Positions 952 through 43,126 of a stretch of 64,000 bases of DNA are shown piece by piece. The notes below the pieces were generated by a model. That model worked only from the letters and a program-made list of their open reading frames with translations. It had not been told where the DNA came from and made no database searches. The position numbers were made by a program, and so were the translations under genes. The first letter of the stretch is position 1. Each line of letters starts with the position of its first letter. Source of the stretch: Moniliella sp. 'wahieum' (taxonomy: Eukaryota > Basidiomycota > Moniliellomycetes > Moniliellales > Moniliellaceae); contig RSEE01000105.1 of NCBI GenBank assembly GCA_003971905.1, positions 150,498 through 214,497 of the forward strand, in the 5' to 3' direction.

Positions 952-1838
952 GCGCGCGGGCACAGCCGCCGTGCGCAGAGAGGGAGCATGGTGGACGCAG
1001 AAAACGAAACGAGCGGCCAGATACGACCGACGAATATACGAGGCCGCGTCCGCCGTCTGCATCACCCACCACGCGCAGCGCCGCCATTGCGTCACACCCG
1101 CCCGACACTGCCCCCCGGCCCACCCGCCCGCGCTTCGGCCCGCTGCTCACCGGTCAGCGTCAGCTCCGATTTGTGCCGCCCACACGGGGCCCGTGCGCGA
1201 CCTCGGGGCGCAGCGGGGGGGCGCTGTCCTGCGCGTCGCCCGGTCATCACGCGCTACAGTCCCCGCGTGCCCGGTATGTTCTGGCGGTAGGGTTAGGGTT
1301 ATCTCTGTGTTCGTTTTGCGCAGTGCTCGGCTGCTGAGTTGAGAAGACTCGCTCCTCCCATGTCACACCTACCATGACACACATGACATGTCCCGCTTCA
1401 CCCAGCATCGCTCCTGGCTTTGGCATCGCACTTGCTTCGCGTAAGACCGGAGGAACCCAAGGGGTTGGGCGATGAACCTCTGCAAACGTAGAGCAATGCA
1501 ATCGCGGTGGTGGTGGTTGGGTCTAAGCCCTGTAACACACCTAGAGGAGACAGGGGTTCCAACAAGCCTGAGTATCGACCTGGAGGCTTCGGAGGTCAAA
1601 TCAGGGACAAAGGGTGATAATCGATAAGGCGCTTTGGCCTATGTACGGGACGGCCATTGTTTGGTGATCCTCCGGTTGTGGCACTGACGCAGTGGCACCG
1701 ATCCCCCACGCGCCCTGGGTTCCTCTCGAGCACGCACCTCACGGGGGAATCTATGTGCCTGTAACTACTCTCTCTTACATACTGGCTGGATTTTTCGCAG
1801 CTCCGACGACTGTGGAGATGAGTGCGCAGACAGAGTTG
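952..1838. other. Intergenic, upstream of OGDH; no gene seen
   Basis: I see no supported gene here. The stretch holds the presumed OGDH promoter. A doublet of telomere-type repeat (TAGGGTTAGGGTT) at 1,288-1,300 lies about 340 bp upstream of the OGDH start codon. Several copies of the ACATGT/GACATG motif occur near 1,360-1,395. Confidence 0.6.
1288..1300 (+). promoter_or_regulatory. Telobox doublet upstream of OGDH
   Basis: The sequence TAGGGTTAGGGTT is two telomere-type units inside the chromosome, between two genes. In fungi such teloboxes are known binding sites for Myb/telobox factors (Tbf1-like) at promoters of growth genes. Its role here is inference from position; it could also be a relic of telomere insertion. 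Confidence 0.45.
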
Positions 1839-1907
1839 CTGCGGCGATTGCCGAGTGGCGCAGCGGGGCGCTTTTTTGGGAGGCGCCCACTCCAAAGCAC
1901 AGTTGGG

Positions 1908-1915
1908 TTATATAG
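1908..1915 (+). promoter_or_regulatory. TATA box of F-box copy 1
   Basis: TTATATAG lies exactly 80 bp before the predicted ATG at 1,988. The same TATA box, at the same 80-bp distance, is kept in copy 2 (5,894-5,901), although flanking bases have diverged. Confidence 0.6.
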
Positions 1916-1987
1916 TAGCCTCCCATACGTGCGCTGCCTCGCCACCACTCCCTTCGGGCCCACCACCATCCCCGCTGTGTTTGCAGC

Positions 1988-4382
1988 ATGCTAGCGCGTC
2001 TGCCGTTTGAAATCCTCCTCCAGATCGTCGTTAGCGGCGCACTCAATCCGCGCGACCTGCTTAGCCTTGCCTCCACATGCAAGCGTGCGTCCTCCTGCTG
2101 CCACAGCGGCCGATGGCACAGCGACCGAGCACGCAAAGCTGACATGGCCCTTTCCCCACAGACCTTCATGCGACACTGGATACAGAGCTGATCTGGCAGA
2201 GGCTCGCGCCACGTCTCCTTCCCATTTGCCCCCACGCATCAGTGGCAGGCGCCGCGCGGCGCTTGGGGTTTGACATCGTCCCCCAAACATGGAAAGGACT
2301 GCTCGTAGCAGCCGAGCTGGTCGAAGAGCAATTTGGATATACTCTCGATGGCCAGGCGTTCACCCCTGTCACCAATCCAGCTCCTTTGGCCGATACCGTA
2401 CCAAAAGCCTTCATCGACACGAGGCCTGCGAGTGCAACCAGTCGTCATGATTATCGTGCCGATGACAACGTTGCTTTCAAGCAAGCCCCTCCGTAATGGT
2501 GGAGCACAAAAGACGGCTTTCGGCATGTCACTTCCAAAACGCTCGGTTTCGTAGCGACAAACAGTGGCGCCCCCAATCGGAGGAGGAGAAGCTTGCGTCG
2601 TTCGACCGCATGCCATGTAAAGTCAACCTACGCACCATCACTTGTTGGCCTCCAGGCATTATATGGGCTTACGAAGCGTCTCCTGCATCGTTCTTTATCG
2701 GGGGAGACTTTCATAACGATCTTATCCTACTTTTGTTCTACCGTGTTGACGGGGATGCCGGTGATGGTGCGTATGTGGTCTCCGTTCACCGCGCCACCAG
2801 TCCGCTGGATATCGATATGGAATACAGTGATGAATCATTATGTTGGGTTCATGAGCATGACATTGTCATGCCCTGTGCATCAATTCCTACCCGTGATCAC
2901 CCTCTCATCGTCTTGGATGGGTCTACACTTCGGCTTTTGTAAGTCCAACCCTGCCCCCAATTTTCGCATTGTCCTTGGCATCTGATCGATTTCATCATCG
3001 TTTCTCCACCATATCCATCAGAGACATTGATGGCCAACAGAAGTGGTTTTCCGAGTATGCCATATCAACGGGAGAGCCTGCATGCCGGACGGTCCTGGAT
3101 GCACCACAAGACGATTCCTTGGCGCGTCGCTCGCTCAATAATCCTCTCCCGTTTAAAGTCGATTCAGGCTTTCTGTTTGTGTCGTGCAAGAGAGAGCTGT
3201 TCGTTTTTAACCGTGGATCGGGCGCCCGCGTTGGTCACTATCCGAAATGATGCAAAACGGATCAGGTTACTGCTCCAATATGGTACACCTTTCTATTGGT
3301 GGGACTGGTTCGCCTCTGGACAAACCCTGTTTACAGGACGCGGTAAGCATCCTTTCCCATTGCCTTGTTTTTGAGAACAACAAACTAAATGACCTTTCCT
3401 TGCGCTTCAGGATCCACCTGACTGGTGCTTCGATTGGGGAAGCGATGGTAACATCATTATCTCTTCACTAGAAGTGTTCCCTGCCTCGGACAGTTTTTGC
3501 TTTCTCCTGCACACGCCTCGTGACTGTTCGCCTGTTCCCTCCTATCTCTGTATATTGAAGGGCTATCGCCATGCCTTTACCGGGACCGTCCACACCCACC
3601 CAGCTTGGTTTGTCACGGTCAACTTGGGATGCATTACTACTCCGGGTCCAACCATCCCTCCGACTCTCAACTATGACGGCCGCTTTATGTACCAGACAAT
3701 CTCCGACGGCTGGTCATACAAAGTGGACTCTGTCCTGCCAGGTGAGAAGGTCACCATTGAGAACAAACCCGTCCAACCAAAGCCCATTCCGTCAACCCCA
3801 ACTTGCGTTGTCTACTGTGGTCCTCGGCTGCGCCTTGGATGCCTCAGGTTGGTCCTTGTTGACTGGAAGTATGCTCGTCTTCCCCATGAAATTCGGTTGA
3901 CAGACATGCCCCTTCGACCGATCCGGGTCGATACGCCAACACCGATGGTCTTGGGTCCTGATCTCATTGTCCCTGATGTCTCCCAGATTGAGAAGGGCAA
4001 AGACAAGAATCAAAACCAAAGTGGGAATAACAGCGTCCGAGATCCCATGGTTTCTACCCATTCGTCCACTCCCAACCCGCACCCGGAATTCTTCTCGTAC
4101 AACAACAGCTCTACTTCCTTTATTGAGACGGGCAGTATCCTCTTCTCCACAGGGGCATTCTTTGCATTGAAACTATTCGTATGGTACGGGAATTTACCCT
4201 CCTTCTCGCTTTCACCAATTATATTGGAATTGGGGTGCCAAGGCCCGCCAATGGCTCCAAACCCACTGATTCCATCCCATTTGGGACCTTCAACATCCTC
4301 ACAGCCTGGATTGGCTCCCTTTCGCTCCACACACCTCATTTCCCTTGCCGCATTTCCGACAGGTAAAAGACCCATCTATTAA
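1988..4382 (+). pseudogene. F-box protein gene, copy 1 (frame broken)
   Basis: Exon 1 (1,988-2,084) encodes MLARLPFEILLQIVVSGAL followed by NPRDLLSLASTCK. This is a typical N-terminal F-box, the Skp1-binding module of SCF ubiquitin ligases. Intron 2,085-2,161 leads into LHATLDTELIWQRLAPRLL in one frame. Further introns are at about 2,940-3,021 and, by analogy with copy 2, near 3,342-3,410. Two one-base differences from copy 2 break the frame: near 2,485-2,490, giving a stop after FKQAPP, and near 3,225, giving a stop after VGHYPK. The last exon, from about 3,411, is open to 4,382 and ends differently from copy 2. The ~600-residue region after the F-box has no domain I recognise. Given the homopolymer errors elsewhere, one or both lesions could be artefacts, so pseudogene status is provisional. 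Confidence 0.6.
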
Positions 4383-4732
4383 TCCCTCAGTCGCGCGCCT
4401 GCGGCGACCAACCCCGCGTTTGACGGGTCTTCCTTGTTACACCCCTTCTTGTAACCCTTTCCCTTGTGATCTTGCCCGTACCCCTGGTTGATGGGGATCC
4501 TTTCCCCCACCTTCCATTCTCGTCATCTCTCGTCCACCCTCAGTATCCTCGTCCTTTCACACCTATCCTGTCCTAACCCTGCCCGTTTTCCAGCTAGAAT
4601 GATCCACTTGACAGTCAGCCACCTCTTGTTAGCGTTCTACTTCTCCTACGACCTCGTCCTCCAGCAATCCGTTAGTCCAGTCGCGCGAGCCCTCCGCTAG
4701 CCGCGTCGATTTCCAGCCTCAATCCAGTCTCA

Positions 4733-5010
4733 GTTGAGGCAGTCTTTGTCCGCCGCTGCTTCCTCCCATCCCTAAGTCCCGGAGGCTTCAGACATGTTAC
4801 TACAGCCCAAGCCGGTGCAGACGCAGTCTTGCTACACGAGCAGCCGCCCCACCAGAGTCCTCTCCTCGTCCCTAGCTACTGTATGCGCGGATTCACCAAC
4901 TAGCCCAAACCCGAAACTACCGTGAGTCGACCTACCGTCGCCTAAGGGATGGCACCCCGAAACCCCGGGCGAGCCCCCTCGCGGGGCTGCCCCGTGAGAC
5001 ATGTGACAGG
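4733..5010 (+). repeat. Dispersed 3' module, copy A
   Basis: This module begins near TTGAGGCAGTC and ends near GTGAGACATGTGAC. It contains the shared blocks CCCAAGCCGGTGCA and CCGAAACTACCGTGAGTCGA. It recurs downstream of F-box copy 2 and again, alone, at 11,801-12,131, so it can be duplicated independently of the F-box gene. I see no coding sequence in it. Confidence 0.75.
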
Positions 5011-5286: not shown

Positions 5287-5740
5287 TCTGCTTAGGGTTA
5301 GCACTGGAGAAGCAGGTATCTGCACCCTAGTTGACCGGTAGAGTGGGGCGCCCCCCCCCCGTAGAAAGGCAGGGGTTTCAGGATGAAGGATGAGATCTGA
5401 GATCTGATACGACGGAGAATCTCTCCTTTCTATCTCGGAGGGTGGACAAGAATCTGCCAACAACACTATTGCTCGCCGACCTGCACGTGACGGGTGATGG
5501 GTGGAGAGCCGCGAGGAGAAGCCTTTTATTGGGGCGTGAAGCTTGATTGAAGCTTGAAGCCAAGGCGGCTGCCCCAAGGCTGCGTATGCGCCGGCTTGGG
5601 GGTAGCAATGCTAGTAACGTGTCTGAAGCCTCAGGGGCTGATGGACGGATAAAGAGAGACAAGGGAGATGGAGGGAGCAGGGCATGCGCAGCGGCCTGCG
5701 AGCGTCACCGTGCTGGGGCTCCCTGGCACTACCCTCCAAC

Positions 5741-5799
5741 CGAAGCAAGCGAAGACTGCGAAGGCTGCGAAAGCACTAAGAAGATCATCCGATAGCACT
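5741..5799 (-). repeat. Inverted repeat, right arm
   Basis: This is the partner of 5,228-5,286 in opposite orientation. It ends 23 bp before the start of F-box unit copy 2 at 5,823. The inverted-repeat element therefore abuts the duplication breakpoint, which suggests it took part in the rearrangement (inference). Confidence 0.75.
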
Positions 5800-5893
5800 T
5801 GCTCGTATATGATGTGGAGCCGCTGCGGCGATCGCCAAGTGGCGCAGCGGGGCGCTTTTTTGGTATAGCCGCCCACTCCGCTCCACGGTTGGG

Positions 5894-5901
5894 TTATATA
5901 G
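5894..5901 (+). promoter_or_regulatory. TATA box of F-box copy 2
   Basis: TTATATAG lies 80 bp before the ATG at 5,974, exactly as in copy 1. Confidence 0.6.
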
Positions 5902-5973
5902 TAGCCTTCCATGCATGCGCTGCCTCGCCACCACTCCCTTCAGGCCCACCACCATCCCCGCTGTGCTTGCAGC

Positions 5974-8239
5974 ATGCTAGCGCGTCTGCCGTTGAAGGTC
6001 CTCCTCCGAATCGTCGTCAGCGGCGCACTCAGTCCGCGCGACCTGCTCAGCATCGCCTCCACATGCAAGCGTGCGTATCTCTGCCGCCAGGCACAGCGAC
6101 CGCGCAACGCTGACATGGCCCTTTACCCACAGACCTTCATGCGACACTAGATACTGAGCCGACCTGGAATTGGCTCGCGTCACGTCTCCTTCCTATTTGC
6201 CCCCAGGCATCACTGGCTGACGCCGCGCGGGACCTGGGGTTTGATATTGTCCCCCAAACATGGAAAGGACTGCTCGTGGCGGCCGAGCTGCTCGAAGAGC
6301 AATTTGGATATACTCTCGAGGGCAAGGCGATCACCCCTCTCACTGACCCTGCTCCTTTGGCCGATACCGTACCACAAGTCTTCATCGACAGCAGGCCTGA
6401 GAGTGCAACCAGTCGTAATGAGTATCGTGGCGATCACAACGTCGATTTCAAGCAAGTCCCCTGGGTATTGGCGGAGCACAAGAGACGACATTCGTCGTGT
6501 GACTTTCAAAACCCTCGGTTTCGCAGCAACAAAGCGTGGTGGCTGCTAAAGCAGTTGGGGCGGGAGCAGCGTGCGTGGTTAGACCGCATGCCATGTAAGG
6601 TCAGCTTGGATACCATCACATGTTCGCCTCCAAGATATGGTCTTACGAGGCGTCTCCTGAATCATGCTTTATGGGGGGAGACTTTCATAACGACCTTATC
6701 CTACTTTTGTTCTACCAAGTTGGCGCGGATGCCGGCGAAGGTGCGTATGTGGTCTCCCTTCACCGCGCCACCAGGCCGCTGCATATCGATATGGAAAACA
6801 GTGATGAATCATTATGTTGGGTTCATGAGCATGACATTGTCATGCCCTGTGCATCAATTCCTACCCATGACCACCCTTTCATCGTCTTGGATGGGTCTAC
6901 ACTTCGGTTTTTGTAAGTCCAACCCTGCCCCATTTTTCGAAATGCTCTTGGCATCTGACCGATTTCATCATCGTTTCTGCATCATATCCAGAGACATTGA
7001 GGGCCGACAGAAGTGGTTTTCCGAGTATGCCATATCAACGGGAAAACCTACATGCCGGACGGTTCTGGATGCACCACAAGTCGATTCCTTGGCGCATCAC
7101 TCTCTCAATAATCGCCCCTTTCAAGTCGATTCAGACTTTCTGTTTGTGTTATGCAAGAGAGAGCTATTCGTTTGTGACCGTGTATCGGGCGGTCGCCTTT
7201 GGTCACTATCCGAAATGATGCAAAACGGATCAGGTTACTGCTCCAATATGGTACACCTTTCTATTGGTGGGACTGGTTCGCCTCTGGACAAACCCTGTTT
7301 ACAGGACGCGGTAAGCATCCGTTCCCATTGCCTTGTTTTCGGGACCAAAAAACTAAATGATTTTTCTTTGCGCTTCAGGATCCACCTGACTGGTGCTTCG
7401 ATTGGGGAAGCGATGGTAACATCATTATCTCTTCACTAGAAGTGTTCCCTGCCTCGGAGAGTTTTTGCTTTCTCCTGCGCACGTCTCGTGACTGTTCGCC
7501 TGTTCCCTCCTATCTCTGTATATTGAAGGGCTATCGCCATGCCTTTACCGGGGACGTCCATACCCACCCAGCTTGGTTTGTCACGGTCAACTTGGGATGC
7601 ATTACTACTCCGGGTCCAATCATCCCTCCGACTCTCAACTATGACAGTCGCTTCATGTACCAGACAATCTCCGACGGCTGGTCATACAAAGTGGACTCTG
7701 TCCTGCCAGGCGAGATGGTCGCCATTGAGAACAAACCCGTCCAACCAAAGCCCATTCCGTCAAGCAGAACTTGTGTCATCTACAGTGGTCCTCGGCTGCG
7801 CCTTGGATGCCTCAGGTTGGTCCTTGTTGACTGGAAGCATGCTCGTCTTCCCAATGAAATTCGGTTGACAGACATGCCCCTTCGACCGATCCGGGTCGAT
7901 ACGCCAACACCGATGGTCTTGGGACCTGATCTCATTGTCCCTGATATTTCCCAAATTGAGAAGGACAAAGACAAGAATCAAAACCAAAGTGGGAACAACA
8001 GCGTCCGAGATCCCATGGTTTCCACCGATTCGTCCACTCCCAATCCACACCCGGAATTCTTCTCGTACAAAAACACCTCCACTTCCTTAATTGAGATGGG
8101 CAGTATCCTCTTCTCCACAGGGGCGTTTTTGGCATTGAGAGACATTTCATGTGATTCGAGAATGTACCCTCCTTCTCGCTTTCACCAATTATATTGGGAT
8201 TGGGGTGCCAAGGCCCGCCGATGGCTCCAAACCCACTGA
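5974..8239 (+). pseudogene. F-box protein gene, copy 2 (one frame break)
   Basis: The predicted exons are 5,974-6,070, 6,133-6,912, 6,992-7,310 and 7,379-8,239, all with GT-AG borders. The F-box is MLARLPLKVLLRIVVSGAL followed by SPRDLLSIASTCK. After it the frame runs through LDTEPTWNWLASRLLP and WKGLLVAAELLEEQFGYTLE. At about 6,633 a 4-bp deletion relative to copy 1 shifts the frame inside exon 2. It is not in a homopolymer, so it is probably real. Downstream the frame resumes with IWSYEASPES.FMGGDFHNDL, crosses intron 3 into DPPDWCFDWGSDGNIIISSL and ends WGAKARRWLQTH. If functional, it would be a substrate adaptor of an SCF ubiquitin ligase. The C-terminal part is unrecognised. Confidence 0.6.
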
Positions 8240-8965
8240 TTCCATCCCATTTGGGACCTTCAACATCCTCACAGCCTGGACTGTGCTTCCCTTTCGGTCC
8301 TCACGCCTCATTTCCCTTGCCGCATTTCCGACAGGTAAGACCCATCGAATCCACCGGTGGTATGCGTTGGCAGGAAAAGGGGAAAGTGTTATACGGGCTG
8401 CGGCGGACCCGATGGTCGGATCCAAACGCTGACGCCCACCTGCTCCGCACATGCCCTGTAGAGCGTGCTCCGCAGGCCAACCAAGTGTGACATGTGATGA
8501 TGGTTGGCTAAATAGGTGTCGTGGTCCGAAGGGCCATGCGTCCGCGCAACATCCGCGCGACCGTCGCCCTCCGCCCAACCGAGCTTCCACCTCTGTCTCC
8601 GTTTCCTTTCCTTTCTCGGTCGCGCCTGCGGCGACCAACCCCGCCTTCGACGTGTCTTCCTTTCTGCAGACCTTCTTGTATCCGTTTCCCTTTTGATCAT
8701 GCCCCCCCCCCTGGTTGTGGGGGATCTTTTCTCCCACCTTTCACTCTCGTCATCTCTCGTCCACCATCTACCCGTCATTTCCCGCCTATCCTGTCCGACC
8801 CCTGCCCGTTTTCCAGCCAATTGATCCAGTACATGATGCCTCCTCTTGTTAGCGTCCGACTTCTCCTTCGACCTCGTCCTCTTGCCATCCGTCAGTCCAC
8901 AGTCGCGCGAGCCCTCCTCTAGCCGCGTCGATTTCCAGTCTCTTTCCAGTCTCTTTCCAGTCTCA

Positions 8966-9213
8966 GTTGAGGCAGTCTTTGTCCGCCGCTGCTTCCTCCC
9001 ATCCCTAAGTCCCGGAGGCTTCAGGCTTGTTACTCCAGCCCAAGCCGGTGCAGACGCAGTCTTGCCACACGAGGAGCCGCCCCACCAGAGGCCTCTCCTC
9101 GGCCCTAGCTACTGTACGCTCGGATTCACCAACTAGCCCAAGCCCGAAACTACCGTGAGTCGACCTACCGTCGCCGAAGGGATCGTACCCCGAAACCCCT
9201 GGGCGGGCCCCCT
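8966..9213 (+). repeat. Dispersed 3' module, copy B
   Basis: This is the second copy of the module at 4,733-5,010, located at the 3' end of F-box unit copy 2. It stops where a run of GAGTTCT/GAGTTCC heptamers (9,217-9,251) begins. Confidence 0.75.
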
Positions 9214-11800
9214 TATGAGTTCTGAGTTCTGAGTTCCGAGTTCCGAGTTTTCTATGCGATCGAAACGCGTACAAGGGATGGTATCATCGAGGACAATATA
9301 TCAGGGATGGCTAGCGGCTCCCAACAAATTGGATTAGGCGGCGCACGAAAGCTATAGGCGGTGCGCACACAGATGCGTGAAAAAGTTCGCAACATTTTAA
9401 TGACCTGAATTGTAGTACAGGCTGCCTAGGCGCCTCTTTCCGCATGAGGCCTGAGGCTCAGGCTCAAACGCATGCGTTCCTGCCGCCTGAGGTTCAGGCC
9501 TGGGGTCCCGAGGCTTGAAGCTTGAAGCTCTTAAGGCTCCCGATCTTAAGCTTCAGGCTTCAAGAATTTCAAGCCACAACAAGTCTATTAGTCTCAGATC
9601 TCAGATATCAGAAACTCAGTAGACTCACACGCGGACTCATCGGTCAGGAAGGCTGACCCACCACACCGAGCCTCAAGCTCCTCTCGGCCGCAGAAGCTTG
9701 AACTTCAAGCCTCAATATCGCACTATCTCAATCTTCAATCTTCAAGGCTATCATGTGGATCAGGCATCTCATACAGCACAGTGCATCAGCCTCTGAATCA
9801 AAATCAGGGAAAAGAGAAGAGAAGTATAAGGCCTAAGGGTTAGGCCATGCACCATGCTTTGTCGACGAGCGATCGCTTGAGGCATGGATGTATGATGCAT
9901 GATATGCGATGTATGACGCGTGACGCGTGACGGGTGCCGCTGTCGGAGCCGCGCAACAAAACATTTCCGGGACGAGGCGCAAGGGTGTGTGGGACTCTTG
10001 AGATTGATGTCGGCGAGGCCGGAGGGCATATGCCATGTGACATATGACATGTGACATGTGAGGCCTGAGAGACCCGGAGAGCCCAGGGTGGGGGCGGGAG
10101 AGGGAGCTCAGCCGGTCAATATAAGTCAACGGCGGGTCAGCCCTTGTCAACCCTTGTCAACCCTTGTCAACCACGTCAACCACGTCAACCACATCTCGAA
10201 CTCAACACACAAGTTTTGAGTCCAATGTTCAACCACTAACCGCTCCGCCTGGACGGATAAACGTTAAACGTAGCAACAGTAAACTGCTTGGAAGGACGCG
10301 GAGGATTCAAGTCAGTGTGTGGTTCCCGAGGAGCCTACTGTTCATGAGGCTGTGACATGTGATGGTAGAGAGCAGCGTCGTTAACCGCGTTAACGTCATT
10401 AATGCCATTAAGCATTAGCGCGTCTGCGTCTCTGTTGATGCATGATGTACCTCTCCGTATAAGCCACAATTTGGTTCTATAGTCGATCCTATACAAGCCG
10501 AAAGGGCATGCGCTTATGGCGCTTATATGAGCCAAAAGCGGATGGGATAGGCGATTATAGAGAAGCCAGAGTAGTGACATTTATACTAGCGGTTATTATA
10601 GCAATAATGCTTCGTTCGTGCCTTGGTTACAAAACGGAGAGAGGGCAGCGGGAAGAGCACAGAACAGAACAACATGACCGTCGATGAGATCGGTGGACTG
10701 TAGCTGGTTCTATATTTAGCAAAAGTGCGAAGCAGAGACGAACGAGTACACACGGTACTGCGAGCAGCCTAAGATCAAACTGCTGACTGTGTTGACTGCT
10801 GAACGCTGGAATCAACCTCTGAGGATTCAACCTGAGTGCGCAGCCAGCCCAGAGCAAGTTTTGAAAATTGGCATTGAAGCTTGAAGGTATACCTCAAGCG
10901 GGAACGAGAACAAAAAGAAAGAGATTATGCGCGCACGGGGAGTGGCTATCGAGTGGCTTTTGTTGTAACTAATCAGCAGTTCTAGTCACTAATCACAGGT
11001 CACTGCATCTTCAAGCTTCACAGCTAACCCTCTCTTCTGTACTCAGTGTACTCAGTACTCACTGCATGTAATCACGTCCTCTCAGATCTCAGATCTCACG
11101 CGTCACACCAGCGACATGGCCACAAAACACCTGCAACCCCACCCTGGAGGAAGAGGAGGGCACATCAAACATCTGCCTCAAGCTTCAAGGGGGTCTCTCA
11201 GGGTCTCGATCTGTAGCACCCTCCGGCCTCCCGCGTCCCGTCGCCGTCAACGCGTCTCAACGTGTCAACTTTAAACCCCTCAAGGTGGTGACAGATCTGA
11301 GGCTCAGATCTGAGGGATCTGAGGTCCAAAAGACCTAAGAAGTTCGAGATCTGACTGGAGAGTGACTAGTGACTAGCGACTAGTGACTCCCCCCGGCGAT
11401 GATGTCGATGATGAGAGTCAAGCTGATTGGTTGAGCTTAGTCGAGCTTCAAGCTCCAAGTGACGAGTACTAACTACAGTGATCCCCCCAGTTAGTACGTT
11501 ATACGGCAGCCATTTCATTGACGGAGCTTAAGGCTGGGACAGGGGAACGCTACGCCTAAACCGACCCGTTCATTTTGCGCGTGTTACTTGGCAGCGCCAC
11601 CATGCTAGGGAACCAGGGGGATCGCCAGGATATCAGGAACTCTGGTGCTCGCTATCCGGTCCCATACCCGAGGTATAGCGCGTGTGAACACGGATGAACG
11701 TGGTAGACTTCCGAGCTATAAACAAAACACTGTCGACTTGAAGTGCTTGAGGTTCTACGCCGCGGTATCTACGCCCTTTACATGTTACGCGTTGCACGTC
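9214..11800. other. Gene desert rich in palindromic heptamers
   Basis: I found no convincing gene. The stretch is packed with tandem 7-bp units: GAGTTCT/C at 9,217-9,251, CGCGTGA at 9,917-9,930, CATGTGA/CATATGA passing in phase into GGCCTGA at 10,034-10,068, and AGTGACT/AGCGACT at 11,361-11,388. It also has 10- and 9-bp repeats based on CCCTTGTCAA and CCACGTCAA at 10,140-10,195. Confidence 0.65.
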
Positions 11801-12131
11801 TTGAGGAGATATTCTCAGCTCTGGCAGTACTTGTCCTCCACTTCTTCTACCCGTCCCTACGCCCCAGAGGTTTCAGTCACGTTACTACGGCCCAAGCCGG
11901 TGCATATACGCTGCCTTGCACACGTGTGCCATCAGTGTAGCCACCTAGGCTTGACGACTTTAGGGCTTGGCTCCCAGAGGCCTCTCTCTCCTCGTCCTTA
12001 GCTCCTCTCAGATCCACCATCTAGCCCAAGCCCGAAACTACCGTGAGTCGACCTATAGTCTCCGAAGGTATTGTACCCTATAACCCTGGGCGAGCCCCTT
12101 CTTGGGGCCCGTCTCCGTGACATGTGACATT
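11801..12131 (+). repeat. Dispersed 3' module, copy C (orphan)
   Basis: This is the third, most diverged copy of the module at 4,733-5,010 and 8,966-9,213. It shares CCCAAGCCGGTGCA and CCGAAACTACCGTGAGTCGACC and ends at GTGACATGTGACAT. No F-box gene precedes it. The module is thus either a mobile repeat or the remnant of a third F-box unit. Confidence 0.7.
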
Positions 12132-15100
12132 GAAGCAGGGGAAAGAACGGAAGGGATGGCTTCAGTGCAGATCAAGAATGGTAAAGGATGGAACGGTACA
12201 ATGAGGAGCGTATAGATAGTAAGCAAGGCAGCACCATTGGTAGTTACTACTATACATTCCTGGCCGACGGCTTGTCGCCGTGACCACACGATAAAAAGGG
12301 AAGGTTCAAGTGACGTAACTAGTGATTACTGTACTGTTACTACGCGCAAGCGGGGCGAAAAAGGCGCGAAGGCTCATACTGGCGTCGTAGGAACTGAGAG
12401 AGTCTACGCGCCGGACTGCACTTGCCAAATTAAGTACGAACGACACCGCTTGGGCGAACCGGGTGGCGTCGTAAACACGCGTATAACGCACAACTCGTAA
12501 CGCACAACTCTTACGCACAACTCGGAACGCAGAACTCGTCACGCGGATGATAATCGATAATCGATAAATCGATAATCCAAGGCAGACAATCCCAAACGCA
12601 TTCACTTCTTGGCAGATCCATTTCGCACTCGGTTGTAACGTACCATACTCTGACTAGTACTCAGTCTGAGTAACTCAGTACCGAGGAGTGCTCACCTGCT
12701 CACCGGTCACTCAGTCTGAGATCTGAGGTCTGAGGACGACTGAGCGCACGCCTCTCCGCCTCAGCGCTCAGTCCGAAATTGAAACTGAATATCCAGATGG
12801 TAAGACCAAGGTCGGAGAGACGCCACACCCCCGACACGCGTCGGGTAATCTGGCAGCCCTCACGATCTCAGATCTGGAGATATCCAGCGTCCAGATGGCT
12901 GAGGGGCAGGTCCACACGTACGTACATTCCCAGTATTCAGATTGAGATTGAGATTGAGCTATTGAGTCTACATACTCAGCACTCCATACTGCGTAGTGCC
13001 TCTCCACTGAATCAGTAACCGGTAACCGGTAACCGCCTATAGTGGGGCCAAGGTCAGATCTCAGCCTGAGGCTCAAGCCTCAGGCCCTCAGGCCTCAGGC
13101 CGGGCAAGCGGGTCAAGCTTCAAGCCAAGGGACCAGCGGCTCAGCCAGAGCGCTCACACGGAGCACCGCGCGCCCTCAGTCTGAGTACTCAGCGCGTCAG
13201 CCGCTCCGGCTGAGCCCTAGTAAACCCTTGAGCCCCCCACGGGCGAGGTACGGGCATCCATGCATCATGCATCATGCATCATGCATCGAAGAATTCGATC
13301 CCCAAGCTCCCTGGCCAGCAGCTTGAAGCGTTACACGTTACACGTTGTTAAGCCTTTTGGAAGCGCAGCCACAGGATGTCGGATCGTCGAATCGCACAGC
13401 ACAACAGTACTGTGGTACTACCGAGCACTGGATCTTGAATCCTGAGGATTCAGTCCGAGGCCTGAGCGCCTGAGCGCCTGAGCCTGAATATTGATTGCAA
13501 TGAATCCTGCGGAATGCTATGCGCGCCCCCACCATCCACACATCCACAACAATTTATCCGCCACGCTCTTGGGGGCGCAGGCGTCCTGCCCGTCTCTAGC
13601 TGGTTCAGCCAAGCCGTCGGAGTGGGTGGTGAGCCGTGGCGCGTGACCGGTAACACCGGGCCGGAACCGCGCAGTAACGCGTAACGGGTGAAGTGAACCT
13701 TGAGTCTCGCGTATTGACCTCATGGCCTCATCGATCATCGGACGAACGAAGAGCTATGCAAGTGGATGCAAGACGCGCACAGCTACGGTCGTTTGAGGTG
13801 GAGCCCATGCAATACATAGACCCACCGGAGCAACTACAGGACAATACCTCGGTGCTCGTACTTGTACTCAGGTGAGTGAGTACTCAGCGCCATAAAAATG
13901 GGGTGTGTTTGGCGTGTGTGTGCGCTGATTGGGTGGGTGTGTAATGAAATGGATCAAACGAGCGTGGGGGTGGGATGCCAGGTGCCTAGCGCCAACAAAC
14001 ACAGCTAGGTGCAAGCCAACAGGGGCTTGGATGGGCAGGTGCGGCGGAGGGCGGAGAGTGGGCGAATGTGTGGTGGCGGAAACCCCGCTGGTGGAGGAGT
14101 GGGCGCTGGAAGGCGAGGCGCGTGGCGAGTGCTACGTATCGAGGCCGGATAAAAAAAAGCAGAGCGAGGGGGCAGTGGCGGGGTGGGTGGGCGAGGGACG
14201 GCGCCTTGTTTCTGGCTATGCTGTGCGTATGCGATGCTGGGGGGTAGGGTTAGGTGTGTGAAACGATGCGCGTGATGCAATGCACTGCGATGCATAGGCC
14301 GCCCCCAAGCCAGAGCAGCCATCATGCATCATGCATCAGTGCTCGGTGCTGCATTCTGCGCGCCCCCCACACGGCAGTGTGTGGCGCAGGGGGTGTGTGC
14401 CTTGCGACGGCGACAACAAAAGTCCCATGCAGGCGGAATGCATACGGCTGCTGCTGTCCGCTCGGGTGGGATGGATGCCTCTGCACGAGGGGACCCTAAC
14501 CCCCTCCCACGCTGTCCCACGTCGCTTCCGTCCTGCGCAGGGCCTGCGCCTGCCATGCACCATGCCAGATCCGCGCGGGGCCGAGGCTGGCGCGTTGTCG
14601 GCCTACGTACCCCCTCCGCATCGGACAGCTGGAGTGGGCATGTGCTGCGCTGCCTTTGCCACAGCACGCCCTAGTCTGTCTCGATCGCTGGGCTGCGCTC
14701 GGCTGCGCTCGGAGGCACTGGGATCGATGATCGATCGGGCTGCGTCGGGTGTCGCAGAGGATGGGTGATCTGAGACACACGCCATACTATGGCGGGTACG
14801 CGCTGCGCTAACCATCTGTGTATGTATAGGTGTATTGCATAGCATCCTCCATCTTGCACCCGTCCCGAGGCGGCGGGCGCCATCTCGGGCACGGGCGATG
14901 TGTGCGGCCTGCACCCCGGCGACCCCAGATAAAACCCTGGCACACGCGTCTGCGGGCGTGGGGCGGACCCTCCCATCACCCTCCCTCTGCTCCTCCACCC
15001 TGGTCTTCTCGCTTCCGCCCGCTGGGTCCCGTGCCCTGCCCTCCGCTCCGCCCCCTCGACCCTTCCTTCCCTCCGCTCTGCTCCACCTCCATCGCAGCTC

Positions 15101-16009
15101 ATCCCCTCCCTCCCCTCGTCGTACGTGTTACCCCTTCCGTCCCCCATCCACACCGACAGCCCACAGCCCACGCGGGGGGCAGTCGTGCCTCTGGCCAGCA
15201 CACCTCCTCCAACCGCTAGTCACTACCTTGCCACTACTACCTTCACCAGTCCAGTGCGCCGCCGCACCGTCGTTCTGTGCTCTTGCCGTCGCAATCGACC
15301 CACTGGCTCTCCTCCGCCTGATCCGTCGTCCCGCCGCCCACAACACAACTCCGTCGGCGCCCCACCGATCGCCGACGGTCCGATCCCACACCCCACTTCA
15401 CATCCGTACTCAGTAGTACTCAATACTCAGTACTCCGTGCCGCCACCCGAATCACAGCTGGGCAGCCGGACGCTGGCCATGTCCTTAGCGTTGGCCCACG
15501 TGCCCCCCCGCCTCGCCCCCCGCTTTTCCTTGTCACATGTCACATCCATTTCGGGTGCTATCCCAGCTCCGTCTCCTTGTATCCGTTACTGACTTGCGCT
15601 CCTTCGTTTTTTGCCCTCTCTGTGCGCTGCGTCACATTAATTGCACTGCTCATTTCCGGGGCTACCGTCATGTCCGCGACTGTCCTGCTGCGATGTTGAC
15701 CGTCACGTTTACCGCCGACCATGCATCATCATCACCATCAACATCAACATCATGATCCTCATCGTCATCATCATCATTGTGGTCCCGCCCTCTTCAGGCG
15801 CCAGGTGCTGGTAGTTCAGCTCAGCTCGCCCCCCCAGGTTCAGGTGGATTGAACGGCGCTTTCCTGCTGTGTTGACCTGATCTGTTTAAGTCCAAGTGGG
15901 AATTCGGAAAGGACCCTTCTTCACCCATCATATTTCGCCTCGCCCCCGACAACCCCCCTCCCCCTCCTCCCTCTAGCGTTACCTGTTCTACCTCCCACGG
16001 CGGCCATCC
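12132..16009. other. Gene-poor region upstream of the zinc-finger gene
   Basis: No supported gene. 12,132-13,890 continues the heptamer pattern: 14-bp units based on TAACGCACAACTC at 12,484-12,539, TAATCGA at 12,551-12,572, TAACCGG at 13,016-13,036, TGCATCA at 13,261-13,288 and CGTTACA at 13,329-13,349. From about 13,900 to 14,250 the plus strand is strongly G-rich and contains a telobox (14,245-14,254). 14,950-15,220 is pyrimidine-rich and probably belongs to the promoter or 5' UTR of the gene at 16,010. Confidence 0.6.
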
Positions 16010-18933
16010 ATGCCTCGTCTCGATCCTACTGCCGCCGATATTGTGATCGATGAACGGCTTCCTCCTTTGCCAGCGCTTCCGCGAGCGGGATCGACCACTG
16101 TGCCCAGCACGCTTGAACGTGCTGCTCCTACCGCCTCGCGTCGCTCTGGTCCCGAATGGCGCCGGCAGCCCGGCCCATCGTTTGTCAATGGTCCGGGAAA
16201 TCTGACTTCGGGTCACATTCCCCAGTTCAATAAGGCCGGCGCGCCACCTGCGTCTTCGTACCCCCCAACATCACGTAGTGCTGGGGCAGGGTCCGCAGGT
16301 CTGCATCCCTACCTCCCTCCTTTATGCCTATGGACCAAGCCAAGCCAGCTCGGATGCCCTTGCGACAATCTACAATGGGGGCACCGCTGCATCCAAGCAT
16401 GTCTCCTGATACGCCCAAGTTTGGTGCGTTTGCCTCGCATCGGACTGGCGGGGCGTATGCGCCGTCGTCTTCCCCCGACGATCCAAGTCGGCGCGGCGAG
16501 AATGGAATGAGCTTTGCTCCTCTGCGCTCGCACTCTGGTTCGGCAGCCGCTTCGGGTTCGGAATTCTCTTCCCTTCATTCGGCCCCTTTTCCCATCCCGG
16601 CCTTGCCCCCGCCCCCGCCTCAAATCCAGACGGGGAGCGTGGGAATGCTGAGCTTGCACGACGAACGTATTTTGGCACCGTTCCTAAAACCGCGGGCCAA
16701 GCGGCGCCGTGACCACGAAGCAGGGCATACTTCTACTTCTACCAAATCCCGCCCGTCCGTCGACCACACTGATTCCCTCGGTGGCTCGCCCGAGGGCGAC
16801 GGGGATGTGAAACCACACCTCGAAAGTGAGGATACTACGAAACCTGCTCTTTCCTCGGAATCGCCAGATGTGCCCACGGCGGAGAACACACTACCCGACT
16901 CGTCGGCTACCAAGCGCAAACGTCCCCCCCCCGCGGTCCAGCGAACGTCCTGGCCCCGTCATGATCGATGGCAAAAAACGATACCCCTGTGGCTCGTGTA
17001 CACTTACGTTTAGCACCAGTGGTCATGCCGCCCGGCACAGTCGGATTCATCGTGGTACGTTACATGTCCCTGTGCGCGCTTGGTTGGTTTTTTTTTTCAC
17101 GTTGGGCCTCTGTCCTCGTGGCGGATCGATCCAATTTACCGCTCTAGCCATCGGGATGCGATTGGCTGGCTGCTGACCATTGTGCTTTGCGTCGTACTTT
17201 GCGTCGTGCTTTTCGTTCTCTGGACCTGCTAGGTTCGCGGCCGTACGTGTGCACTTTTCCCGGCTGCGGCAACCGTTTTTCGCGCCAAGACAATAGCTTG
17301 CAGCACTACAAGACGCATGTGAGCGCGTCGCGCAATTCACGCGACAATGAGCTAGGGTACTTGCTCAAGTCGGCCGCGGAGATCGCGCAGGAGGACCGGT
17401 ACATTGCGTTGGGCAAGAAAGCCTTGTTGGACGGTACGGCGATTGCGGTGATGCACGACGTGTTTGACAGCAAGGGTCGGCGGACGGGGGAGAAACTAGT
17501 GCGGTCCGTAGGCGCCGACTTGTCCACCGCTTGCCTCGGTCTAAGAATGACCCTACGCCACCGGCGCATGTACTGCAAACGGTGGAACAGCAGGCGGCCA
17601 GTGCGAATCAACAAGGTCCACACTCGGTAGGCGCAACCGCTCTCGAGGCACAGGCACGCCAAGATTCTCCTCTGCTTCTGCTTCTGCTTCTTTCCGCCCC
17701 GGTGCGATGGCCGACCCCATGGCTCCCATGTCCGACTCGACCCGGCTCGGCGCGGCTTTGGGACCGACGATGGCCGCGGGCGGATTGTAGGTGCACCAGT
17801 GACTTCGTCCATTGGTGATCCGAGCGGCGGAGGAGGGGGCGGTGGTCTGCCCCCACGCACCGTGCCTACTCCATGTCGACGGCAGGTCCAGGCCCAGGGC
17901 CGGGCACGACCGCCAGCGCGGGCTATGGCGCCATGCCTTCCAATCCCGTTTCCGTGTTTGCCGACCCTTCGCTCGGCCCCGTTTCCACGGCGACGAGTGG
18001 GACAGCGTCGGGTGCTGATGGTGTGCCGGCCCAGTTTGGCCCTTCGACCCCGACCGTGTTCCCTCGTGCGAGCACGAGCACGAGCACGTCGAGTAGCAGT
18101 GTGACGGGCCGTGTGATGCCGGTCGGCATGGCGGCTGTCTCGCCTACCAATATGGGTGGCTACGGCCCGTCTGCCTCTACCTCTACCTCGCACCTCGCAC
18201 GCGCGCTCCTCAGCGTCCTACCCCCCTCGTGGGCACACAGATATGGGCACCACAGTCTCCAGCCACTCGCCTACGACCGCATCGGAGATGACTGTCATGT
18301 CCCGCCCGGGCCCAGGGGGCACCAGCACCAGCACCAGTACCGGCACTACCTTTGGCCCGAGCATGTCGTCTGCCCCGCCCACCACATCTACATCCACATC
18401 CACCACCCTGCTCCCGCCTTCGCCGATGATCAACCCGGGTGCATCTATGTACGTGTCGGGCCCGTCGGGCGCAGTAGGTGCGCAAGGGCTCGAGTATGGT
18501 TCGTGGGACGCGCGCACACGCACCCAGTTCAGCACAGGTATTATCCTTCGTACGCACAAGCACAAGCCAAGCACAAGCACAGGCACAAGCACAGGCACAG
18601 GCACAGACACAGACACAGACACAAGCGCCAGGACAAGCGCCGGGGCAAGCTACGTGGCGCGCGCCCGGACCAGGACCGAACCAGGCTATGGCCTACCACG
18701 CTTCGGGCTACGCTCCGTCCGGCGGGTCTTACTACCAAGCGTCGCCTTCGTACGCCATGACGTCGGCGCCAGGTGCGGGTGCACCGGCGCAGCCTGCTCC
18801 AGCCTGGCGCCTGCGCAACGAAGCGCGTACAATTAATGAGCCGTTGAGTATCTTATCGGTCACGGTACATGGTACATGTACAGGGTACTACTACTACTAT
18901 ACTTTGCCTGCAGTGCGCCTTGGGGTACCTTAG
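16010..18933 (+). CDS. C2H2 zinc-finger transcription factor, Nrg1-type (two fingers)
   Basis: The protein has a Pro/Ser-rich N-terminus, a basic patch (KPRAKRRRDHE) and two adjacent C2H2 fingers. Finger 1 is YPCGSCTLTFSTSGHAARH, finishing SRIH (C-X2-C-X12-H-X3-H). A 178-nt intron (17,055-17,232) interrupts the linker. Finger 2 is VCTFPGCGNRFSRQDNSLQH, finishing YKTH (C-X4-C-X12-H-X3-H). The TSGH/ARH and RFSRQDN pattern is that of Nrg1/Rgm1-type repressors, which in fungi act in carbon repression and morphogenesis; that function is inferred by family. The C-terminal third is low complexity, with Ser/Thr runs and a (Gln-Ala)n tract at 18,556-18,634. The frame slips at a T-run (16,321-16,323), at C9 (16,924-16,932) and several times in the C-terminal region, so exact length and stop are uncertain. 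The start at 16,010 gives the first coherent frame. Confidence 0.8.
18556..18634 (+). repeat. Coding hexamer repeat (Gln-Ala)n
   Basis: Tandem CACAAG/CACAGG/CACAGA units encode alternating Gln-Ala, then Gln-Thr, in the C-terminal part of the zinc-finger protein. Such tracts vary readily in length. Confidence 0.7.
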
Positions 18934-27100: not shown

Positions 27101-30100
27101 TCCACAGGCTCCGCATATGTTTCAGCTGTAGAACACGCACTTAATCTGGGTACTCGAGGCTCAGATCTCAGACTTGAATGATCTGACTTGTAGATGACAG
27201 TTAAATGCATTACACACACATGCGCTCCAGTGGAGGCTAGGGAATAGTCTTGTCCTCTTCATCAGGAGGGAACATCGGAAGGTATATGAACCGACACGAG
27301 GGGAACCGGGCTTGAGCTATCGGCCACACACTTGAGGCACCTTGGCCTGTATATGGACCTCTGCCTCTGTAGATCCACAGGCTCTTATCGTACCCCCTCT
27401 TCGGAACGGAGTCCTGAGTTCAGTACTGAGGGTTCTAACTGAGAACTGATGACTGATGTACAACTGCCTGAGGCCTCAGCCTGAGGTATAATCGATAATC
27501 GGTAAATGTTTCCTGAAAAATGCACACCTGAGTTCTGAGATGGCGCTTCCACTTGCGAGGCAGTTCATGCATCATGCTTCATGGGACTGCGACAATGCCC
27601 AGATCGATCATCGATCATCGGTCATTCTTTGACATCTGTCAGTGATGCATGATGCATGATGCGTTTCGAACTGCAGCTGTCGCACGTCGAATGTCACAGG
27701 TCACATGCATCACGCGTCATTCATCATGCATCATGCATGTCAGTGTACTCAGCGTCAGCGTCAGCGGGGGCCCGGCACTGTACACGTCCAAATGGCACAC
27801 ATGCTGAACAGGCAAATGCTTGTGACATGGATCACGCAGCATGCTGATCGATGCATGACCGGTGATTTCCCGATGCATGACGGCGCTGCAAACAACCATG
27901 TCTCACACCAACAAACATGCCGGCGCCACACGCCACCCCTTAGCCACCGGTCACTCACGCGGAACCATGAGCCTTTCAGCCCAACGTTCAACACCAGAGC
28001 TGAGCTGAGGTGGCCGGTGGACGTACCGCGTAATAACATTGTGCTGAATTTGGAATTTGCACGCGCCAGAGCGGACAGCGTGGGCTCCCCTTTGGTCTAC
28101 CCGGCTGTGCCCTCCGTCCAGTGCCCACTATCACTAGTCCCTGGAGGGCTGGAGTGCATGTGGACTGCGTACCGAACGCATCAATTTGCAAGGACGGCGC
28201 TAATCGCTAATCACTTGGTAGTCACTACTCAGTCGCCATTATTCCTGGGGTACCAGCCATTGGTACATAAGTGTTTTTGGTTACGAATAGCAAGGAACAT
28301 ATGAACGTTGAACCGGTCAACCTGCCAGCAAACGTCAAACACCAGTACTCGCATCAGTGCATCAGCGTCGTGACATGTCACATGTCACACGCCACGCGCG
28401 TCACCTATCTCATTTCCAAGCGCAGGTGGGCAGTGCTGTGCAACCCTTCGAGTCCGACCCGCGCCTGGCAGTTCAAGTTGAACGTTGAACGCTGACCGGT
28501 GATGGGTTGAATTGACGTTTAACGCTAACGTGTAACGTGTAACGCTTACCGGGTACCATTATACCATTGCCATTGCCATTGCCATTGCCATTGCCATTGC
28601 CATTGCCATTGCCATTGCCATTGCCAATTCCAATCGCATTCACATGCGTTGTGAAAGAAAAGCCCAGGGCGCAGAATTCGTGGCGTGAAACATGTACCAG
28701 CGCGTAACCGGGTAAAACCCGATCATCGATCATCGATAATCGACAACCCCCTTCTCTCCCCATTTTCCATGCGAGGCGCGGCCAATTACTTCGAGCTGCA
28801 AGCTACAAGCTCCAATATTCTAATAACACTCATGTGTGCGGTGCACGATGCTGTTGGCGGGGCGAGGGGGGGGGGGTCGCCGGTGGAGTATGTTGCCAGG
28901 CAGCAATGAATTGAATGGCTGCCCTTTTGAAGTACTGTACTATAGCCTCTCCACTTGTGATGGGTGACGACCTGTTAGATCTTAGATTAGCGCTTAGCCT
29001 GGCAGTCCTTCCTACCGCGTCTCCTTGATGACTATGATGTCTCCGATCGCCTCTCTTCTCGAGTACTTGACCGGTAACCGGTGACCCGCCTTGTCGCTCT
29101 TCGGCTCTAAGGTCGTTACCGCGTTACCGTCCAAAACGCTTTGTGTGTATCCGGATCCCGGTTCCCGTTTCCAAGCGTCGATCAACACACACTCTATGCT
29201 CGAGCCGGCCTCGAGGGGAGCGAGGCGCAGAAAAGGGCCCAGGGTGTTAGGCTCAAATTGTCAGATCTCATATCTCAGAAGATCTCACAGCCAGATTCTC
29301 ATATCTCAGATCTCAGACTTCTGCTGAGATATAGCGCCTACAAGGCTGAGGACCTATCGGGCTGCATTCCATACATACTGTCAGCGCGACAGCGCGTGTC
29401 GGATCTCAGCGCTTCAGCGCACCGCCTCAGCCAACTTATATTACCGTCCCGCCACACAGTCGGTCCAACGTTCAACGTCATCAACGTTATTGATGATCGA
29501 TTATCATGCATCACGTATCAGCGTTTCACGTTGAACGACGTTGGGATCTGGGGCCAGAAAGCTCTGACTGAACTGAGCGTTTGCTGAGCAGCCCGAGCAG
29601 GGCTGGGCGCTCCGGCTCAGCACATCCAATATCCACCATGCGCAAGGAAGAGAATGCGAAATGCACCGCGCACTGCCAAGCTGGGACAGGAGCATGAAGC
29701 ACATCATGCGAGTTGTGACATGTGACAGGGTGCATGTGACATGTGACAGGGGGCTTGTTGACATTGACATATGCGACATGCGACTGACAGGATGGGACTC
29801 GCATGGCGGGTGACGGTCACTGTGACATATGACGTGTGGCATAGATACCGAGTGCAGAATGCGGTATAGTCGGAAGAAAAGGTGGAAAGGGCTGGTAGGA
29901 AAAAAAGCGCTCTGCAAGCTGCAAGATTCATGGGTCGATCATCGATCATTCAACAAAAATGCATCTTTCGTGTGTGCGGCCGTTGGGACAGCGCCACCTC
30001 AGGCCTCTTAGATCTTAGATCTCTTAGATCTTACTCTCAGGCTGAGGATGCGCTGAGCGGCTGAGGAGCGCCGAGCTGGACCGAGATTGGATATTGATAC

Positions 30101-31613
30101 GTCTCTGAGATCTGAGATCTGATGGCGTGTCACTGTGACATGTGACAGCGCGGGGGGACGGCGAGACGTGGAAGGATGCGGATGGCACATCTTCCCGTCA
30201 CGCCCCAGCGCGTCAGTATTCAATATTCAATGCTTGTCCACGAGCAACGTGCAACGTGCATGTCACGTCAACGCGTCACCAGCCACACTAACGCACAGAA
30301 TAATGCCATCCACCGATCAGCCAGGATCATGCAGTACGTCAGTTCTTCGGTTCAGCGCTCAGCGACGCTCAGTGCATTCAGCACATTTAGTCCTCAGTTA
30401 CTAGTTACTAGGGACTAGTCACTCGGTATGGAGTGGGTCAGCGTAGGACGTTCAACGTTCAACGTTCAAGCTTCCTCCGCGTCTACGTTTTTGCGTTCGG
30501 CGTATACGTTCAGCACATGCAATTGAGCATGTTGATCGCGATGATGCACATGCATGCTGGATGTATCGAGTATCGGTCATCATGCATCAAGCTTCCAATG
30601 GATCCAGTTGAGTTATCGATTATCGATAAATCGCGGTAACTGATCGAGGCTTTTTGTTCACCGTGTTCGATTCACACGACGGCAATACCATACGGTCCAT
30701 CCGTGCTCGCCGTTCGCAGTAATACTCTTCGTACTCAGCTTGAAGGCTGAGTGTCACATGTCACAACGTCACGCGTCGTGCGCGTCATGCGTCAAAGCGC
30801 CATGCCACATGCACATATTCACATGGCACCCGTCACACGTTGACACACAATGTCAACATGTCAATCGCGTCACCGGTTCCACCGTTCGACGTTCACCAAA
30901 AATGTCACCCAAAAAGGGTTCGCTGGGGCGCTGGACCGCTGCAGCCTGGGGGCTGTGGTGGGGTGGGTACGTATCCCCGACACCGATCACCGATCATCGA
31001 TCATCGACCACCGCATGCAGCGTGCTATCAATTCAGGACAGCAGCTGAATCACCGGCATCACGCGTCATGCATGCTGCACAGGCAATACGAATAGCATGA
31101 AACCAAACACAACCGAGACAGCAGTGCGATGCTGCAGCCTCTCCCCCCGGCCGGCTGTGAGACACGGGCTGTGCAGCTGCCAGCCCCGATTGCCAGCTGC
31201 TCGGCTGAAACTCTGGCAACAAATTTGCACGGCACCCATATATATCTACCCATCCCATTCTTGCCCCACATCCTCCATCTTCCCTGTTGCGCCCCCCCAC
31301 CCCCACCCCCGTCCCTCCACCCACCATCTCTGTCCACTTGTCTTTCTTCCAGCCGATCGCTCTGCCGCCTGCGCTGCACGCCCCCCCATCTCGCTCTACC
31401 TTGGACCTATGACACCTGTGGTATCTCTTGCAGTGCGTTTCAGCCCCGGACGCGCAAGTCCCCCTTCTCTGTTTGCTAACGTTTCTGCCTTTACTGCCGC
31501 TGCCATATCTTCTACCTTTTTCCCGCCAGGCCACGCCCGCCCCCCACAAGTCCGTTTATTGTCGACGCCGCCGGTCCCCGTCGCGCTCCCTCACCCCCCA
31601 CCCTTTTGCCCGG
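24122..31613. other. 7.5-kb gene desert with palindromic heptamer runs
   Basis: No gene could be supported on either strand; the open frames here match no family I recognise and lie over repeats. The region is dense in 7-bp tandem units with palindromic cores: GCTTGAA passing into GCGTGAC (25,470-25,497), CATGTGA (26,015-26,035), ATCGATC (27,603-27,623), ATGCATG (27,645-27,662), CTTAGAT (30,007-30,035) and ACGTTCA passing into AGCTTCC (30,448-30,475). A (CATTGC)10 array sits at 28,565-28,624. The last few hundred bases (31,240-31,613) are C-rich and probably form the 5' region of the homeodomain gene. Confidence 0.6.
28565..28624 (+). repeat. (CATTGC)10 hexamer array
   Basis: Ten perfect tandem copies of CATTGC in non-coding DNA. 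This is the longest perfect short array in the window. Confidence 0.95.
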
Positions 31614-43005: not shown

Positions 43006-43126
43006 GGACGACGGCGCGCACTGCATTTCATGGGTAGTGTGGGAGTGTGCATCGGAGGTACAGGGTGGATGTGGATAGGAAGGAAGGGAAGGGGACTGGC
43101 GAGGAAAACGCGAGGACCGACGAAGC

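Follow-up and report, generated by a model that had tools for sequence, protein, structure and literature searches.

Excision of the hAT transposon Ac/Ds in Candida albicans leaves deletions together with palindromic P-nucleotides that are attributed to hairpins, and the palindromes centre on a single base (PMC5873905). Among fungal transposons, hAT7 elements make 7-bp duplications, Kyakuja elements (KDZ group) make 7-bp target duplications in basidiomycetes and have no terminal inverted repeats, and the clade with Transib is stated to make duplications of 2–5 bp (PMC12730594). Abundant 7-bp direct repeats between genes, TAACTGA, are described for Beggiatoaceae (PMC4679880). Here we analyse a 64,000-nucleotide stretch from the fungus Moniliella sp. 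'wahieum' (the window; contig C105:150498-214497 of a 69.5-Mb assembly in 223 contigs) that carries many short units of the form TxA-NNNN-TxA, in which NNNN is palindromic. These units follow a rule of flank copying, come in two sizes, and are gained or lost whole between homeologous copies of the locus. They are best read as behaving like a transposon excision footprint, and resemble neither an ordinary satellite nor a code for protein binding. A literature search over titles and the starts of abstracts, with most subscription papers outside its reach, found no description of this pattern.

A seven-base step with changing cores

An earlier note on the window had described 9,214–13,890 as a gene desert of tandem heptamers, almost all containing a palindrome of the form A-NNNN-T, in which the core changes and the 7-bp phase is kept. 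The heptamer runs it named were found at their places in the sequence, by Tandem Repeats Finder and as exact lag-7 runs. The main runs are as follows.

10034..10068, plus strand: in-phase run passing from TGA-CATG units to TGA-GGCC-TGA (sequence, Tandem Repeats Finder)
11080..11104, minus strand: in-phase run with cores GATC, GATC and CGCG and a TCA spacer (lag-7 runs)
11361..11388, plus strand: TGA-CTAG array with one mutated unit (Tandem Repeats Finder, lag-7 runs)
12549..12577, plus strand: TAA-TCGA array (Tandem Repeats Finder, lag-7 runs)
13015..13035, plus strand: TAA-CCGG array (Tandem Repeats Finder, lag-7 runs)
13259..13287, minus strand: TCA-TGCA array (lag-7 runs)

Across 9,214–13,890, self-match at lag 7 lay 11.8 standard deviations above 100 dinucleotide shuffles; lags 14, 21, 9 and 30 reached 6.0, 4.0, 3.9 and 3.5, and all remaining lags from 1 to 30 fell between -2.6 and 2.2. 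Set against 300 such shuffles, the region holds 18 lag-7 runs of at least 7 (mean 0.23, maximum 3), 68 A-NNNN-T palindromes (mean 16.0, maximum 27) and 38 TxA units (mean 0.25, maximum 4). A second region, 24,600–31,100, is similarly rich, with 46 units (shuffle mean 0.39), 105 palindromes (24.4) and 32 lag-7 runs (0.34); the gene-rich stretch 42,000–50,000 has 3 units (0.19), 23 palindromes (16.4) and no lag-7 run (0.72). 'Gene desert' is a fair name for 9,214–13,890, which has only three open reading frames of at least 100 amino acids (105, 118 and 102), provided that the dispersed-repeat relics also present there are kept in mind.

The runs are not confined to this contig; such confinement was what the earlier note had named as fatal to its claim. 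Counted across the whole assembly, CATGTGACATGTGA occurs 1112 times (551 + 561; reversed control 1 + 0), (TGANNNN)4TGA 2309 times (1244 + 1065; control 243 + 183 = 426) and (TAANNNN)3TAA 952 times (463 + 489; control 198 + 193 = 391). Our detailed statistics come from 304 kb, in which the window is joined by 240 kb taken at seven further sites (on C105, C1, C20, C40, C60, C80 and C3); the sample is non-random. It contains 291 TxA-palindrome-TxA units, and extrapolation gives about 66,000 in the assembly, an order of magnitude only.

In this sample a 6-bp palindrome is present in 108 of the 214 period-7 repeats (chance share 0.10), and 103 of these 108 palindromes are A-NNNN-T. The palindrome excess is thus real, but 'almost all' was too strong; the CGTTACA run (13,329) and the 14-bp units (12,484–12,544) are themselves without an A-NNNN-T palindrome. 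Phase is indeed held while the core changes: differing A-NNNN-T cores are spaced at exactly 7 bp in 34 cases and at 14 bp in 19, with 0–12 cases at each other distance from 2 to 35, and the 7-bp count for C-, G- and T-flanked palindromes is 6, 8 and 3.

These counts bear on a rival explanation, ordinary minisatellite slippage and decay with palindromes as a by-product, which we consider unlikely. Arrays with a single core do exist. Among the matches listed, 61 non-overlapping (TGANNNN)4TGA arrays, chosen blind to their cores, include 18 with four identical cores; 38 have one palindromic core type, 15 have two and 8 have none, and 160 of their 244 cores are palindromic, 60 have one broken pair and 24 have two. 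Slippage, however, copies one unit, whereas here adjacent in-phase cores differ in the 34 cases above. The pattern is strong and present throughout the assembly, and slippage alone is insufficient. Period and symmetry are conserved while the letters vary, so that no single satellite sequence is involved and, as the earlier note held, the pattern points to a mechanism.

That note had also offered a binding constraint on a 7-bp step; selection for protein binding of this kind we regard as very improbable. In its favour, the A-NNNN-T excess lies chiefly outside long open frames (465 against 174 expected from a second-order model or 237 from a third-order one; inside frames, 710 against 613), where C-, G- and T-flanked palindromes stand at 197/222, 203/226 and 154/181 observed over expected. 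The mask took any frame of 120 codons as coding and so over-masks. Insertions of 7 bp would, however, be purged from genes anyway.

Cores are copied from the flanks of T-N-A

The rule is tighter than A-NNNN-T: identical TxA stands on both sides of a 4-bp palindrome, which may have almost any letters; one half of it is a copy of one flank and the other half the reverse complement of that copy. When each of the 64 trinucleotides was paired with its own repeat four bases away, only the T-N-A pairs enclosed palindromes (TGA/TCA 248/451 and TAA/TTA 43/86; the next best, GAT/ATC, 35/316). Pairs with the same x occur at 4.5–8.1 times expectation and are palindromic in 291 of 537 cases, with one broken pair in 146 and two in 100. 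Cores of 2, 6 or 8 bp between TxA show no comparable palindrome excess, and 5-base cores are odd-palindromic in 18 of 198; that the excess is limited to 4-bp cores between T-N-A also speaks against slippage.

In 151 isolated units the core matched the left flank in 44, the right in 43, both in 27 and neither in 37; 32 of these last are one base off a flank copy, where 64% would be expected by chance. The two bases are copied as a block, since lag-7 runs of length 5 extend by 2+0 or 0+2 in 56 instances and by 1+1 in 8. All 16 palindromic tetramers are represented among isolated cores, indicating that no base sequence is read, and decayed cores (the 146 and 100 above) are common; both observations argue against a binding site. 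A binding or helical period is ruled out by the copying of flanks.

Three other decompositions of the unit were rejected. If NNNN were the duplicated target and TxA the remnant, cores would not differ across TxA as often as they do (34 different, 58 same), nor would x differ so rarely across a palindromic core (47 against 291). A target duplication of 3 bp, in which element ends supply NNNN, conflicts with the flank-derived cores and with the existence of whole 7-bp repeats. Odd palindromes around TxA are not enriched on their own (T.A 721 and A.T 747, similar totals).

A period-9 class and a seven-base target

A second class of scar, with period 9, consists of an entire 7-bp repeat NN-TxA-NN and two inverted bases. 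Two examples lie in the window.

11041..11056, plus strand: ACTCAGT-GT-ACTCAGT, a full 7-bp repeat with two inverted bases (sequence)
11309..11324, plus strand: TCTGAGG-GA-TCTGAGG (sequence)

We counted exact repeats of k bases in which the two copies are separated by p bases and these are an inverted copy of the repeat's opening p bases. For p = 2, where chance is 0.0625, the counts were 85/549 (k = 5), 16/144 (k = 6) and 23/134 (k = 7), all in excess, and 4/28 for k = 8; k = 4 (87/1350) and p = 1 were at chance. T at position 3 and A at position 5 were preferred, with frequencies of 0.74 and 0.72 (k = 5), 0.56 and 0.56 (k = 6) and 0.83 and 0.70 (k = 7), and the k = 7 target, NNTNANN, is symmetric around its middle base. 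Full 7-bp repeats with a 4-bp palindrome numbered 14 + 15 of 277 pairs for T.A centres (two tests, which may overlap), against 0 + 2 of 165 for A.T, 2 + 1 of 869 for C.G and 0 + 2 of 1016 for G.C. The commoner 7-bp scar is the period-9 type with two bases trimmed off one copy, and the 7 bp most plausibly reflect both the length of the net insertion and that of the duplicated target.

Filled and empty alleles on a homeologous contig

Another contig, C82, is colinear over 234,000–264,000 with window positions 9250–16500 and 24600–31100, at 94–95% identity per aligned column (75–92% per match with gaps), and bears the same kind of units. The assembly therefore seems to hold two diverged genomes, as in a hybrid, a dikaryon or an old polyploid. 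We compared three stretches, with 6,627 aligned columns and 348 mismatches. Gaps of 1 to 7 bp numbered 41, 32, 14, 2, 1, 8 and 19, respectively; there were 4 of 8 bp, 6 of 9 bp, 5 of 10 bp and 5 of 14 bp, and one each of 11, 12, 13, 18, 22, 24 and 50 bp.

In 11 of the 19 seven-bp gaps, judged with 13 bases of context on each side, only the filled allele has a unit, and its core is derived from a flank every time: the left in 5, the right in 1 and either (both match) in 5. Further right-copied units lie at 10360, 28980 and 10434, the last in a 14-bp gap whose empty site is not clean.

10198, 27830, 28197, 30235, 30578: left-copied filled-only gaps
27160: right-copied filled-only gap
28373, 29070, 29303, 29463, 30217: filled-only gaps matching both flanks
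9914..9932, plus strand: TGA-CGCG array, one unit shorter in C82 (lag-7 runs, C82 alignment)
10353..10362, plus strand: TGA-CATG-TGA, where C82 has a further unit, TGCA, taken over from the outer right flank, at the end of the CATG array (C82 alignment)
27161..27170, minus strand: TCA-GATC-TCA, a right-flank copy; C82 is without the unit and has one substitution at its site (C82 alignment)
28975..28996, minus strand: adjoining scars TTA-GATC-TTA and TTA-GCGC-TTA, both right-flank copies; the C82 site has neither (14-bp gap)
30220..30229, minus strand: TCA-ATAT-TCA, missing in C82 and matching both flanks (lag-7 runs, C82 alignment)
30580..30589, minus strand: TCA-TGCA-TCA, a left-flank copy; CATCA is single in C82 (C82 alignment)

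The additional TGCA unit of C82 (10360) shows how a run changes its core in phase. Six of the 19 gaps are perfect tandem copies, as slippage would produce, but 6 of the 11 filled-only units are one-sided copies and not tandem duplications; we retain slippage for array growth only and reject it as the whole explanation. The alleles also tell against selection for binding. The letters copy the two bases beside TxA, homeologues differ by whole units placed under that rule, and there is a sister class with a 9-bp period; no binding constraint acting in 7-bp steps is needed, and this part of the earlier note is not supported.

A proposed model of cutting and healing through hairpins

We propose that the units are probably scars left where the DNA was cut around a central T-N-A with a 7-bp stagger, and where the ends formed hairpins that were then opened two bases away from the tip. 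A staggered double-strand cut on a 7-bp target, l2 l1 T x A r1 r2, would leave the target duplicated. Both flanking ends would then form hairpins, and nicking two bases from the tip would give 4-nt self-complementary overhangs, r1 r2 r2' r1' on one side and l1' l2' l2 l1 on the other. Were these laid on each other and one retained, the product would be TxA-NNNN-TxA, a net gain of 7 bp with identical x on both sides and a palindromic core from one flank; an untrimmed other end would give the full 7-bp repeat with two inverted bases (period 9). The symmetry around x, the 7-bp duplication and the two inverted bases, drawn equally from either side, fit such hairpin-capped flanks. Because the copied TxA is again a target, further rounds could build in-phase runs, in which copying of the outer flank would switch the core and slippage would extend stretches of one core.

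The agent is most likely a cut-and-paste DNA transposon, present in few copies and duplicating 7 bp of its target, which would have inserted and departed. A possible but doubtful alternative does without a transposon: T-N-A would be cut by an enzyme of the cell, such as a nuclease, a domesticated transposase or a topoisomerase-like protein, and the scar would arise directly from end joining in which two bases are copied by fold-back. Top2 leaves 4-nt overhangs, which do not give 7 bp, and a complete symmetric 7-bp NNTNANN repeat resembles a target duplication. The scars are nonetheless dense (291 in 304 kb) while neither an element nor a transposase profile match was seen, although a few very active elements would escape a sample of that size; Top2-induced de novo duplications are reported in the literature. 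Along the same lines, we put forward tentatively, as a minority possibility, a mutational process so far undescribed. In it a dimeric enzyme belonging to the fungus would make a 7-bp stagger at T-N-A with hairpin-capped ends and no inserted element; active since the genome copies split, it would have remade much spacer DNA as flank-copied palindromes.

If healed hairpin cuts are indeed the source, the assembly is a vast natural archive of hairpin-type cutting and repair, legible base by base, each scar telling which flank was copied, how far from its tip the hairpin opened and how much was trimmed. It would point to a very active, putatively transposase-like enzyme, and would explain an apparent palindromic code without function. 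It would also call for caution elsewhere, where a short tandem repeat with a palindromic core may be an excision scar and not a regulatory site.

Counter-evidence and the search for an element

Several observations weigh against excision scars healed through hairpins. Mixed-x TxA pairs, at 0.8–1.5 times expectation, are palindromic in 47 of 260 cases, which is some excess, and a slight excess was also seen for p = 3 (for example, 25/1022 against 0.016 expected). Among the 19 seven-bp gaps, 4 have the unit in both alleles and 4 have none; of the latter we read 30086 as a unit with one substitution, 28009 as obeying the copying rule with T-G-G (GGTGG-CC-GGTGG), and 26936 and 30984 as lying in mutated arrays. 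By a strict score, 16 of the 19 fit with at most one mismatch, but so do 15% of random intervals from the same scar-rich sequence. Gain and loss at these sites are unpolarised.

The searches for an agent belong to the same side. Within the 304 kb we saw no conspicuous inverted-repeat element with NNTNANN duplicated at its ends; 5 of 3155 T.A pairs have at least 5 inverted terminal bases (3.1 expected), and a separate inverted-repeat scan found a T-N-A centre in 0 of 9 seven-bp matches; these negatives are limited, because such scans miss low-copy elements and elements without inverted repeats. Profiles for hAT (PF05699, PF14372) and KDZ (PF18758) had no match in the genome, but no control genome matched either; the MULE profile (PF10551) had none where the control matched in 3 of 14 genomes, in an exon-by-exon search that is not final. 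The absence of matches to these four profiles is a weak negative.

Three candidate elements were rejected. Listed copies of a dispersed repeat at 11,860–12,120 (57 matches) end in CCCGTGACA, and by eye their flanks share no T-N-A. A segment of about 1.46 kb in C82, missing from the window near 26,366, has neither inverted repeats nor a 7-bp repeat at its ends, by eye; a 255-bp repeat from self-comparison is flanked by 5-bp repeats. The first of these, the dispersed repeat with ends CCCGTGACA/TGTCACGGG, looks like a long terminal repeat and occurs at window positions 11813-12129, 8393-9213 and 4394-5008 and at 5690-6533 of sample locus L032, where it sits inside a TCA-CCGG array with GTCAC on both sides.

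Neighbouring features of the window

Window positions 1838-4376 and 5822-8346 form a 2.5-kb direct duplication (89.5% identity), each duplicate being followed by a copy of the repeat ending CCCGTGACA/TGTCACGGG. Another dispersed repeat, of about 210 bp, lies at 11497-11723 and has some 40 assembly matches at 85–90% identity among the matches listed. A perfect hexanucleotide microsatellite, CCATTG x 10.5, occupies 28564-28626 (Tandem Repeats Finder), and a reading frame at 31428-33041 has a homeobox KN domain at its end. Two adjoining genes of isocitrate/isopropylmalate dehydrogenase type lie on opposite strands at 53703-57810. Among the 120 matches listed, the isocitrate dehydrogenase frame is 89% identical to that of Tilletiaria anomala and 76 to 85% identical to those of other named Ustilaginomycotina.

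Comparison with known systems

The heptamers of Beggiatoaceae have one fixed sequence, whereas here the letters vary under a flank-copying rule. In a slippage minisatellite new copies are plain copies of a neighbour, unlike the one-sided units that make up 6 of the 11 filled-only gaps. RAG1/Transib-type systems form even palindromes from hairpin-sealed flanks opened off-centre, and even P-nucleotide palindromes at the joint are found here too, but the target duplication of 2–5 bp in Transib differs from our complete repeat of 7 bp. The scars also share with hAT footprints a duplicated target at the joint, short palindromic P-nucleotide additions and small trims. The hAT target size (8 bp, or 7 in hAT7) is matched by the k = 7 class (23/134; k = 8 only 4/28). 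The odd centre of hAT palindromes, the complement of the base beside the element, is a point of disagreement that counts against our reading, because cores are even (291/537; odd 18/198). As hAT and Transib each fail one feature, we assign the agent to no family. Kyakuja and the KDZ group share the 7-bp target duplication, and as Kyakuja elements, which end CA..TG, are without terminal inverted repeats, our inverted-repeat scans could not detect them. Palindromes left by Ac/Ds vary in length, whereas a two-base addition dominates here, and the T-N-A target sets these scars apart from both Ac/Ds and hAT7.

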